Of a stretch of DNA of 33,540 nucleotides, positions 6,122 to 9,216 are shown piece after piece; the stretch's first letter is position 1, and every line of letters starts with the position of its first letter. Below the pieces are notes generated by a model. The model searched no databases. It was not told the origin of the DNA and worked only from the letters and a program-made list of their open reading frames with translations. The stretch is taken from contig JAGAUI010000033.1 of assembly GCA_017620815.1 (NCBI GenBank), positions 1-33,540 of the forward strand, in the 5' to 3' direction. The DNA is from Flavobacteriales bacterium. Lineage in GTDB: Bacteria > Bacteroidota > Bacteroidia > Flavobacteriales > UBA1820. A program made the translations under genes and the position numbers.

Positions 6122-7936
6122 ATGGCAAATGGGCTTGATATAGAACTCATACTTAAAACCATACCATCAGATGCTGGTGTGTATAGGTATTATGACAGCA
6201 ATGGTGAGATTCTATATGTAGGCAAAGCCAAAAACCTTAAAAAACGTGTAAGTTCATACTTTAAGGGTAGCGGACATTCGCCCAAAACCCGCGTTATGGT
6301 ATCCAAGATAGCCTCCATACAGTATGTGGTGGTAGAGAATGAAGCCGAAGCCCTTCTACTGGAAAACAACCTCATCAAGTCCCTACACCCTAGATATAAT
6401 ATCCTCCTTAAAGACGATAAGACCTACCCTTGGATATGTGTTAAAAACGAGGCTTTCCCTCGTATCTTCCTCACTCGCCGCAAACTGAATGACGGTAGTA
6501 CCTACTATGGCCCCTATCCCGATGTAGGCACTGCCCGTATGGTGATAGACGTTATCAAAGACCTCTTTCCCATACGCACCTGTAAATACACTCTCAATGA
6601 AAAAAACATAGAAGAAGGACGCGTAAGACCTTGTCTGGAATACCACATCAAACGTTGTGCTGCTCCTTGTGCGATGGGTATATCACAATCTAGATATGAC
6701 CACAACATAGAAATGGCACACCAGATATTGCGTGGGCATTTCTCCAGTGTACTCAAGGAGATGAAGGAAGACATGATGCTGTGTGCCGAAAAACTGGATT
6801 TTGAACAGGCACACCTACTCAAAGAAAAAATAGACCGCCTTTCCTCCTACCAATCCCGTTTTACCGTAGCAGGAGGCAAGGTACGCGATGCCGATGTGTT
6901 TTCCATAGTTTCAGATTCGCTATCGGGATATGTCAATTATATGAGAGTAGTACAGGGTTCCATCATTCAGTCCTACACTATGGAGATAAAAAAATGTATG
7001 GACGAGAGTGATGAAGAACTACTAATGCTTGCTGTGGTAGAGTTAAGAGAACGTTTTTCTTCCACTTCGCGGGAGGTGCTACTATCCATACCTCTGGAAA
7101 TAGAACTGGGGGATGGTATTAAAATCACCGTCCCACAGAAAGGCGAACGCCATACACTAGTGGAACTATCTGAAAGGAATGCCCGCATGGCACGTCTAGA
7201 ACGTCTTAACAAGGAACGTATCACCGACCCCGAAGCCCACAGCTCACGTCTTATGCAGACCATGCAGGAAGACCTACATCTAGACCGTCCGCCACGTCAT
7301 ATAGAGTGTTTTGATAATTCCAATATCCAAGGCACCAACGCCGTTTCTTCCTGTGTCGTTTTCCGTGATGGTCGCCCTAGCAAAAAAGACTACCGCCACT
7401 TTATAGTCCGCACAGTAGTAGGTGCCAACGATTTTGCTACTATGGCCGAAGTCATCACACGCCGTTACTCCCGTATGATAAACGAAGGTGAAAGCCTTCC
7501 AGACCTTATCATAGTAGATGGAGGCAAGGGACAGTTATCTTCGGCATATGAGATACTATGCCGTCTAGGGATAGAAAACAAGGTCAAAATCATAGGCATA
7601 GCCAAACGTCTGGAAGAACTCTTCTATCCAGATGACCCTGTGCCACTATATCTAGACCGCCGTAGTGTAACACTGCGAGTGATACAACAGTTACGAGATG
7701 AGGCTCACCGTTTTGGCATAACACATCACCGCAACCGCCGTAGCAAAGCTGCCCTTACATCAGAACTAGATGACATAAAGGGCATAGGAGAAAAGACACG
7801 TGAGAGTTTACTGAGGGTATTTAGCAGTGTGGATGCCATACGCGAGGCTTCGCGGGAGGAACTTTCGGCAGTAATAGGAGCTGCCCGTGCAGATATCATC
7901 CTCAATTATTATAAAAAGAGAACAGGTTTTATATAA
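6122..7936 (+). CDS. uvrC: Excinuclease ABC subunit C
   Basis: Dual-incision nuclease of nucleotide excision repair: joins the UvrB-DNA complex and cuts on both sides of the lesion. Length is 604 residues, normal for the family. The N-terminal GIY-YIG nuclease is seen at residues 19-42 (GVY, then YVGKAKNLKKR). A cysteine cluster follows (C154, C171, C179, C183), matching the proposed iron-sulphur site of E. coli UvrC but with five extra residues between the first two. A UVR helix pair for UvrB binding is near residues 205-240 (LDFEQAHLLKEKIDRL). Next is the RNase H-like nuclease (IECFDNSNIQG, LIIVDGGKGQLSSA) and a C-terminal helix-hairpin-helix (IKGIGEKTRESLL). It is last in the rel transcript; no terminator is seen directly after it. 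Confidence 0.97.
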   Translation: MANGLDIELILKTIPSDAGVYRYYDSNGEILYVGKAKNLKKRVSSYFKGSGHSPKTRVMVSKIASIQYVVVENEAEALLLENNLIKSLHPRYNILLKDDKTYPWICVKNEAFPRIFLTRRKLNDGSTYYGPYPDVGTARMVIDVIKDLFPIRTCKYTLNEKNIEEGRVRPCLEYHIKRCAAPCAMGISQSRYDHNIEMAHQILRGHFSSVLKEMKEDMMLCAEKLDFEQAHLLKEKIDRLSSYQSRFTVAGGKVRDADVFSIVSDSLSGYVNYMRVVQGSIIQSYTMEIKKCMDESDEELLMLAVVELRERFSSTSREVLLSIPLEIELGDGIKITVPQKGERHTLVELSERNARMARLERLNKERITDPEAHSSRLMQTMQEDLHLDRPPRHIECFDNSNIQGTNAVSSCVVFRDGRPSKKDYRHFIVRTVVGANDFATMAEVITRRYSRMINEGESLPDLIIVDGGKGQLSSAYEILCRLGIENKVKIIGIAKRLEELFYPDDPVPLYLDRRSVTLRVIQQLRDEAHRFGITHHRNRRSKAALTSELDDIKGIGEKTRESLLRVFSSVDAIREASREELSAVIGAARADIILNYYKKRTGFI

Positions 7937-7962
7937 ATCTATTTTTAGAATAAATTATTTTC

Positions 7963-7970
7963 TACATTTG
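7963..7970 (+). promoter_or_regulatory. Bacteroidota -7 box (TACATTTG)
   Basis: Matches TAnnTTTG. No clear -33 TTTG is seen at the right distance. It lies about 290 bases before the lipoprotein start, so a transcript from here would carry the whole nested hairpin as leader, or would make the hairpin as a separate RNA. Confidence 0.5.
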
Positions 7971-8048
7971 CATTATAAACAAAACATAATATGCCTATGA
8001 AACATTAAAATTAAAAGACATATATAAAAAAGCGTTAGCTTATATTCT

Positions 8049-8168
8049 TGCTTATCGGAAATCGCCAAAATTTAAAATAAGCCACAAGAGTAGAAGTTGA
8101 TGCTCACGTTTTGGCGTGGGCTATACTCATGTATGTGGCATTGGTGTTTGGCGATACCTCGATAAGCA
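8049..8168. other. Long nested hairpin element (candidate structured RNA or REP-like repeat)
   Basis: Three nested pairings share one axis. Outer: 8049-8057 with 8160-8168 and 8061-8069 with 8147-8155, separated by a small internal loop. Middle: GCCAC 8081-8085 with GTGGC 8135-8139, and GAGT 8088-8091 with ACTC 8125-8128. Inner: GCTCACG 8102-8108 with CGTGGGC 8115-8121 (one G-U pair) around loop TTTTGG. It is not a simple terminator, having no T tract on either side. It lies between a -7 box and a lipoprotein gene. Either a structured leader or separate RNA, or one copy of a dispersed palindromic repeat, fits. No second copy is in the window. Confidence 0.6.
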
Positions 8169-8260
8169 TAAATGAAGTTATTGGTCCACGTCTTTTTTAT
8201 TGTCTTATCTCAACTTTTTTGGACTACACATATTATTTACAAAAATTCAAGTTTAAAAAA

Positions 8261-8653
8261 ATGAAAAAGACACTTACTATATTTATAATAGCTATATCAT
8301 GTGTGATGATGTGCTCTTCTTGTGCAACTATATTCTGCGGAACACGTGCCAAAATAACTCTTGATAGCACTACGCCAGTAGAAAAAGCAACCCTTACGAT
8401 AGATGGGAACAAATACCGCAACATTACATTCCCTTATGCAGTAAAAATTCGCCGTGGTTTTGACCATACAGACATCAAAGCCGAAGCCGAAGGTTATGAA
8501 CCCGTATATTTTCAAGTGTACAAAAATTTTAACCCCGTTTCTATCATAAATCTATGTGATATATTGGCTTGGGGTATAGACGCTGCTACAGGAGCTATTA
8601 CCAAACCAGAAAAGAAATACTATGAGATAGAATTTGAAAAGAAAAAAGAATAA
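8261..8653 (+). CDS. Small lipoprotein, PEGA-like
   Basis: A 130-residue protein starting at MKKTLTIFIIAISC, with lipidated Cys probably at residue 21 (MMCSSC, then ATIFCG). The frame is open further upstream to 8111, but that part would place a hydrophobic tail before the signal peptide and overlaps the hairpin element, so I chose 8261. The body resembles the CATIF-type small lipoproteins of Bacteroidota: a PEGA-like beta domain (VEKATLTIDGNKYRNITFPY, then KAEAEGYEPVYF) that repeats a surface-exposed motif, followed by a short hydrophobic segment (INLCDILAWGIDAATGA) and the TKPEKKYYEIEF ending. The exact role is unknown; envelope location is expected. It stands alone between the hairpin element and a strong bidirectional terminator. 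Confidence 0.8.
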   Translation: MKKTLTIFIIAISCVMMCSSCATIFCGTRAKITLDSTTPVEKATLTIDGNKYRNITFPYAVKIRRGFDHTDIKAEAEGYEPVYFQVYKNFNPVSIINLCDILAWGIDAATGAITKPEKKYYEIEFEKKKE

Positions 8654-8677
8654 GATTCTCCCTCTTTTACTGCCAAT

Positions 8678-8717
8678 CATAAAAAATGTATCAGCTATCG
8701 CTGATACATTTTTTATG
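8678..8717. terminator. Bidirectional terminator after the lipoprotein gene
   Basis: A perfect 18-bp stem (8678-8695 with 8700-8717) and loop TATC. The arms contain A6 and T6 tracts, so it can act on both strands; here it ends the lipoprotein transcript. Confidence 0.85.
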
Positions 8718-8762
8718 TGGTAATACTTATAACCATATCTCTATCCACATTAAAATTTTCCG

Positions 8763-8770
8763 TACATTAG
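8763..8770 (+). promoter_or_regulatory. Possible -7 box variant (TACATTAG)
   Basis: Differs from TAnnTTTG at one base and lies 23 bases before the start at 8794, just after a terminator, so a promoter is needed here. No -33 element is evident. Confidence 0.35.
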
Positions 8771-8793
8771 TACCCTTAATAAACATATAGCTC

Positions 8794-9216
8794 ATGGATG
8801 ATAAAAAGATAGAAAAAGCCTCTGCATTATTTGAAGAAGGTTTTAATTGTGCCCAATCCGTAGTGGCTGCATATGCCACAGAATATGGTTTCACTCGTGA
8901 ACAATGCCTCAAGATGTCGGCATCGTTTGGAGGGGGGATAGGACGTATGCGTGAGACTTGCGGTGCTGCCTGCGGACTCTTTCTGCTGGCAGGACTAGAG
9001 ACAGGAGCCACAGAAGGTCGTGATACCACATCCAAGATGAATAACTATGCAACGGTGAAAAAATTGGCAGAAAGGTTTATAGAAGAAAACGGAGCCTTGC
9101 GTTGTGAAGATATTCTAAAGTTGGCTCGTGAAGGCAAATGTGCTACTCCATGTGTAGAACGTGTGCGTAGTGCCGCCCGTCTATGGGAAGAATACCGCCG
9201 TTCAGATGATAAATAA
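8794..9216 (+). CDS. C-GCAxxG-C-C family protein
   Basis: A 140-residue cytoplasmic protein of the C_GCAxxG_C_C family (PF09719), thought to be redox-related because of its conserved cysteines; the true activity is unknown. Seen here are NCAQSVVAAYA near the N-terminus, the glycine stretch SFGGGIGRMRETCGAACG carrying the signature CGAACG, a conserved Cys in LRCEDIL, and a closing Cys pair in GKCATPCVERV. Length is normal for the family. Related proteins are often found near redox or metal genes, but no such context exists here: the neighbours are a lipoprotein gene and an M3 peptidase gene. It begins after a terminator and is followed by the peptidase gene after 55 bases. Confidence 0.9.
   Translation: MDDKKIEKASALFEEGFNCAQSVVAAYATEYGFTREQCLKMSASFGGGIGRMRETCGAACGLFLLAGLETGATEGRDTTSKMNNYATVKKLAERFIEENGALRCEDILKLAREGKCATPCVERVRSAARLWEEYRRSDDK

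Follow-up and report, generated by a model that had tools for sequence, protein, structure and literature searches.

A nested hairpin that is half of a larger element

What is a 120-nt nested hairpin doing between a promoter and a lipoprotein gene? The question was raised by an earlier note on the window (the whole 33,540-nt stretch analyzed here, contig JAGAUI010000033.1 of a Flavobacteriales bacterium), which had described three sets of complementary arms at 8049–8168 and offered two readings, an RNA fold under selection in the leader of the lipoprotein gene or a mobile palindromic (REP/BIME-like) repeat. We found all three sets in nested order at the places described, pairing 8049–8058 with 8159–8168 and 8061–8069 with 8147–8155, 8081–8092 with 8124–8139, and approximately 8102–8110 with 8113–8121. 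The 136-nt stretch folded here reached –49.0 kcal/mol, compared with –29.2 (SD 3.7) in 200 dinucleotide shuffles, none of which was as good (z = –5.4). The proposed –7 box is likewise in place at 7963–7970, and from a spacing that we take to be usual, transcription presumably starts near 7976.

The full element extends beyond the nested hairpin, to approximately 8031–8198, so the extent of 8049–8168 given before holds for the hairpin and falls short of the element, of which the hairpin is half. Its 3′ end consists of CCACGTC (8186–8192) followed by TTTTTT (8193–8198). The note had also held that the element has no T tract and is not a plain terminator. It is indeed not a plain one; a T run does lie 25 nt past the hairpin's right edge, where it ends a competing terminator-like hairpin. 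The features referred to below are as follows.

7963–7970, +: –7 box TACATTTG of a Bacteroidetes-type promoter, from sequence (TAnnTTTG upstream in 97 of 132 copies)
8031–8054, +: strand a, partner of b in the terminator fold (hairpin 1; 23 bp, –23.7 kcal/mol)
8049–8058, +: A5, 5′ strand of helix A, pairing with 8159–8168; covaries
8061–8069, +: B5, 5′ strand of helix B and loop of hairpin 1 in the terminator fold, with AAA/TTT flanks; pairs with 8147–8155
8079–8104, +: strand b, partner of a in the terminator fold; in the read-through fold, segments of it pair with C3 and c
8081–8091, +: C5, 5′ strand of helix C, pairing with 8124–8139; covaries
8102–8121, +: hairpin D (b:c), inner arms, 9 bp, 100% of cells paired; antiterminator in the proposed model
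8113–8136, +: strand c, partner of d in the terminator fold (hairpin 2; 22 bp, –25.7 kcal/mol)
8124–8139, +: C3, 3′ strand of helix C, by computed pairing
8143–8159, +: conserved block GGTGTTTGGCGATACCT containing B3 (8147–8155), used as a 17-mer probe; its GGT/ACC could close a small loop
8159–8168, +: A3, 3′ strand of helix A, by computed pairing with A5
8166–8192, +: strand d, 3′ side of the c:d hairpin (terminator-like), by pairing and the own-versus-other test
8193–8198, +: T run directly 3′ of c:d, from sequence (T fraction 0.66 over 133 copies)
8261–8653, +: downstream gene for a 130-aa lipoprotein-like protein with no Pfam match

A few neighboring features were noted in passing. Just past the lipoprotein gene, AAAAAATGTATCAGC-TATC-GCTGATACATTTTTT (8681–8716) forms, by eye, a hairpin with A and T runs that is probably the terminator of this gene, and the gene after it (8794–9216) encodes a C_GCAxxG_C_C putative redox protein (PF09719). 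A GGGACT-like block at 8218–8226, which recurs 20–40 nt past the T run at loci L003, L007, L028, L010, L036, and L039, can pair with the CCC of strand d, with weak covariation.

Two mutually exclusive folds

The element can adopt two structures. In the terminator fold, a pairs with b (23 bp, 8031–8054/8079–8104) and c with d (22 bp, 8113–8136/8166–8192); the read-through fold is the nested hairpin, with helices A, B, C, and D of 10, 9, 11, and 9 bp. Forty-five nucleotides of the window's element are paired in both folds and never with the same partner, and the two folds therefore exclude each other. Their energies are close. In the window, the terminator fold has –54.3 and the read-through fold –57.8 kcal/mol (3.5 in favor of read-through); the means over 133 copies are –50.7 and –55.1 kcal/mol, the read-through fold being lower in 72% of copies and the two lying within 5 kcal/mol of each other in 51%. 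Because thermodynamics favor the read-through fold both in the window and on average, folding programs predict no termination by default. Minimum-energy folding of growing window transcripts, which ignores kinetics and loop–loop contacts, gave a:b first and A-B-C-D from 8164 onward. A simple terminator scan of 7900–8800, which allows loops of 3–8 nt, found no terminator; the loop here is far longer.

Two features expected of an attenuator are present, namely a terminator and an antiterminator with nucleotides in common (45, in folds that both covary) and a T run directly past the terminator stem (8193–8198). Across the 133 copies, the T fraction in the 8 nt following d is 0.66, and the T runs of many copies are interrupted.

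A family of homologous leaders in Bacteroidota

Among 60 relatives searched by BLASTN, clear matches came from G015 (two), G001, G003, G020, G019, and others. We built a covariance model (R1) from 12 homologues (alignment A4), leaving out the long-insert rows L036, L039, and L046 of alignment A3; G019c, a chance match, had been dropped before A3. The model was searched against the Bacteroidota genomes of two overlapping draws, one from the order and one from the phylum. At E ≤ 0.001, the element was detected in 108 of 395 genomes of the order draw (22 of 108 genera) and in 51 of 395 of the phylum draw (25 of 171 genera), with up to seven copies per genome (seven candidates scored).

The 17-mer of the core was matched at no fewer than 119 loci in genome_contigs (at least 119), and 109 of the 119 listed loci hold a model match (89/99 and 20/20), leaving ten without one. 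Titles among the 17-mer matches listed are nearly all Bacteroidota; the loci labeled Acidobacteriota, Acidiferrobacteraceae, and Betaproteobacteria have no model match, and one labeled Ignavibacteria has one. Culturable carriers include Phocaeicola massiliensis DSM 17679 (L178) and Bacteroides timonensis (L141). The 17-mer also occurs in 17 viral contigs, 16 of which carry the element. Phage BS-TP1 (host Bacteroides salyersiae) has one element, which lies, within a run of same-strand genes, in the 288 bp without annotation that separate gp101 from gp102. A second viral sequence pattern returned no matches, and a BLASTN search of plasmids and phages with the window leader found none.

In the host genome the element is single-copy by BLASTN, and the model finds three copies. 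The host's three are ~50%–62% alike, and copies within one genome are generally ~40%–65% alike, orthologous pairs between genomes aside. Such divergence, together with the placement of each copy before a gene, does not fit the REP/BIME-like repeat of the earlier note. The host's other two copies, L221:2918–3077 (–) and L222:2888–3059 (–), precede other exported or lipoprotein-like genes, have B codes of their own (CTGCCA and TTAGGA), and have close orthologues in G002 (L224 and L225). One contig carries two elements 3 kb apart (L155:1475–1639 and L155:4587–4750). Another copy, L208:36–205, scores against the model in both orientations (140 and 31 bits), which shows how palindromic the element is.

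Compensating changes in both sets of helices

For each copy, the duplex energy of a segment and its own partner was set against the energies obtained when that partner was taken from 30 other copies. From 172 model matches, 167 had enough flank and 133 remained after removal of near-duplicates; the window element (0.87 alike to L114) was left out of these and analyzed separately. The own partner was better in 100% of the 133 copies for A, 100% for B, 99% for C, 100% for C+D, 99% for a:b, and 98% for c:d (p ~1e-23). Five control combinations showed no own-partner gain, and in one of these (a with the c half) the own partner was slightly worse (p = 0.02). Since a:b and c:d are not in the model, their result is independent of how copies were aligned and scored. 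Sixteen virus or phage copies found by the 17-mer alone behaved alike, with the own partner better in 16/16 for A, 14/16 for a:b, and 16/16 for c:d and with no gain in two controls; the 16 include related copies, and L035 (no element) and L043 (a near-copy of L040) were excluded.

Covariation was also counted in a 30-sequence MAFFT alignment built without structure. The terminator fold scored 0.181 versus 0.157 in shuffled alignments and the read-through fold 0.207 versus 0.138, with none of 500 shuffles as high in either case, and both structures exceeded all 500 shuffles and all slid versions in covariation score and in cells paired. The number of pair types in the terminator fold was not above shuffles (272/500), and two of its inner helices, 3 and 4, are poorly conserved, with 42% and 33% of cells paired. 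G-U outnumbered A-C 244:63 in the terminator fold and 107:62 in the read-through fold, as expected of an RNA of the + strand. Homologue stems have changed on both sides, for example TCGCCAAA/TTTGGCGA versus TCTAGAC/GTCTAGA.

A single fold is thus ruled out, as a:b and c:d covary as well. Two further pairings that we considered were weak: a fifth helix of d with the GGGACT block before the start codon (own partner better in 62%, p = 0.003) and an outer a:d closure (71% of the 133 copies, 12/16 viral copies).

Helix B is nearly free in sequence: the 47 copies derived from genomes show 37 distinct B5/B3 strings when aligned, some of them distinguished by frame alone. Its flanks (AAA..TTT and GG(G)T..ACC) are conserved. 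Selection for different B addresses within one genome was not supported in 24 copies of 10 genomes (cross-pairing of –18.7 within versus –17.2 between genomes, p = 0.07).

Upstream promoters and diverse downstream genes

In 97 of 132 copies (10.3 expected), a TAnnTTTG box is found in the 120 nt that precede strand a, usually at a distance of 30–70 nt. Of 124 nearest downstream ORFs (≥90 aa), 122 share the strand of the element, and upstream neighbors are mixed (75 same strand, 49 opposite); 12 of the 133 elements overlap an ORF of ≥90 aa. The gene mostly starts 20–80 nt past d. Among 100 genes starting 20–150 nt past d, only one has a TAnnTTTG between d and its start (4.1 expected). With a promoter before the leader and almost none between d and the gene, the gene seems to depend on the leader's promoter. 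Together with the homologues and compensating changes, these data support the other reading of the earlier note, that the lipoprotein gene has a leader whose RNA fold is under selection; the single copy without homologues or covarying pairs that the note had named as refuting is not what we found.

A signal-peptide-like start, judged by a simple rule of hydrophobicity, is present in 60% of 122 downstream proteins, compared with 25% of 624 other ORFs (p = 2e-13). The proteins are otherwise very diverse. In 101 of them (100 of 112 listed downstream proteins, very short ones excluded, plus the window's), no Pfam family has more than five members (top LRR_5), methyltransferases, HTH proteins, a sigma factor, and a Sie-like protein appear once or a few times, and family scans gave no hint of a signal. 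An association with defense genes was considered and dropped, as the 25 PADLOC families listed have one member each and are mostly DNA methyltransferases. On the related phage contigs L039, L044, and L047, which have similar minus-strand upstream genes, the leader sits at a like place before different lipoprotein-like cargo.

The uvrC locus in related genomes

Genome G002 has the same neighbors as the window (S41 peptidase and uvrC), and after them a leader and a gene for a lipoprotein that shares 81% identity with that of the window. In G001, a convergent gene lies 38 nt past uvrC with neither leader nor lipoprotein, whereas G002 has both before the same convergent gene. The G003 uvrC locus had no model match, and the stretches examined around lipoprotein homologues in seven other genomes held no convincing leader. 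The leaders of the two 81%-identical lipoproteins (window 8027–8199 and L030:1951–2118, minus strand) are 57% alike and have different B codes. Unrelated copies are about as similar, but the orthologous leaders of two other pairs are 88%–91% alike; the window leader may have undergone either fast evolution or exchange.

A proposed attenuation mechanism and its alternatives

Sequence comparison establishes a family with compensating selection on both sets of helices, an upstream promoter, a same-strand gene, and a T run past c:d. We favor, with somewhat better than even confidence, transcription attenuation by a leader RNA of ~170 nt that acts in cis and whose two folds exclude each other and have both been maintained in evolution; most likely, the leader determines whether RNA synthesis ends before the gene or continues into it. 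Hairpins a:b and c:d with the T run would stop transcription upstream of the gene. In the read-through fold, helices A, B, and C would join the loops of hairpins 1 and 2, and b and c would close hairpin D; strand c would then be unavailable to the terminator, and polymerase would continue into the gene. Actual termination and the change from one fold to the other are inferred, as is the kissing-loop contact proposed next.

A nearly free B with conserved AAA..TTT and GG(G)T..ACC flanks fits two small hairpins presenting complementary loops, and we therefore propose a strand exchange seeded by kissing loops. First contact is probably made by the two complementary B segments as kissing loops, one closed by AAA/TTT and the other by GGT/ACC, and the ensuing exchange would convert the terminator fold into the read-through fold. 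Were hairpin 1 held, the terminator would stay in force; possible holders include a protein, a small molecule, an RNA, temperature, and polymerase speed.

Other explanations account for parts of these data. A riboswitch or protein-binding leader acting on translation or mRNA stability, for which the second fold would be an intermediate and the T run no terminator, would suit the usual start of the gene 20–80 nt past d, the poor T run of some copies, and the GGGACT block that some show near the start, which pairs weakly with d (62%, p = 0.003). We consider it unlikely given the T enrichment directly past c:d and the strong covariation of c:d; moreover, no conserved unpaired core is visible save the short A-, T-, and G-rich flanks of B, and there is no common gene set (largest Pfam family at most five of 101 downstream proteins). 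An independent small RNA of ~220 nt, running from the promoter at 7963 to the T run and acting in trans beside a gene that is a mere neighbor, is likewise unlikely: with a same-strand gene in 122 of 124 cases and an own TAnnTTTG in one of 100, the gene would be left without a promoter. Such an RNA would nonetheless have the own promoter, T run, and compact conserved structure seen here, and the terminated leader could act in trans as a by-product.

We think it very unlikely that the element works as DNA, as a recombination site or mobile cassette end that folds single-stranded in the manner of attC sites. Its accessory and diverse cargo, and the presence of element and lipoprotein in G002 and their absence in G001 between the same genes, are what a cassette might produce. 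The fixed orientation to the gene, the upstream promoter, the excess of G-U over A-C, and the two alternative folds all speak for RNA instead; copies within a genome are not recent duplicates, and an unsystematic look noticed no common recombinase.

Attenuation by a cis-acting leader also admits an extension that we hold only tentatively and think doubtful, namely a phylum-wide, mobile, self-addressed RNA switch. Promoter and kissing-loop attenuator would then travel as a ready-made module with accessory genes of phages and hosts, each copy with an arbitrary self-complementary code, and the terminated product may act back on copies with the same code.

Relation to known systems

In the trp attenuator, a 1:2 and 3:4 terminator competes with a 2:3 antiterminator. 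The element would share this layout, with a:b and c:d plus the T run excluding b:c; it differs in that its antiterminator is extended by the loop-to-loop helices A, B, and C, which stabilize b:c, and in its very diverse downstream genes, with no conserved leader peptide noticed by eye. The window leader contains a five-codon ATGCCTATGAAACATTAA, and the G015 copies have, by eye, no ATG at a like place. Transcriptional riboswitches also place a structured 5′ leader with a terminator and an antiterminator before the gene, as here, whereas the element has no recognized conserved ligand pocket or common gene set. Antisense attenuation with kissing loops is known from CopA/CopT, pT181, and phage P1 c4. 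The element resembles these systems in its complementary hairpin loops, the proposed exchange into longer duplexes, and specificity by freely varying loop sequence; it differs in that both partners lie within one RNA. The mechanism would thus resemble an attenuator, a new family within a known working class.

Searches of Rfam 15 returned only one tRNA for the whole window, two chance matches on the other strand for 7930–8280 at E up to 10, and only tRNAs for 20 loci with members. Membership in an Rfam family, including Flavo-1, Bacteroidales-1, Bacteroides-1, and 6S-flavo, was rejected, with no match at the gathering score. The leader is an RNA family absent from Rfam 15 and apparently unnamed. 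The portions of the literature covered by our search (including PMC2864571, PMC8040213, PMC10994844, and PMC7366714) contained no such leader and no report of termination in one. The nearest candidate there is HMP2_4078, a 109-bp palindromic candidate RNA, mostly from Bacteroidetes and near phage domains, with no terminator called (Fremin and Bhatt 2021; PMC8040213). In the parts of that paper that we compared, by description only, no second fold, promoter, or leader role is given; judged from the description, HMP2_4078 may be a fragment, or partial earlier sighting, of this leader family.

A structured leader present in 108 of 395 sampled genomes of the order, and standing before exported and phage genes, would rank among the more common RNAs that regulate in cis in Bacteroidota, where few are known. 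Direct evidence of a conserved RNA switch in the form of covariation in two competing folds of the same nucleotides is uncommon, and it makes the logic of the switch directly testable with point mutants. The leader could also account for control over recently acquired cargo genes that bring along no regulator.
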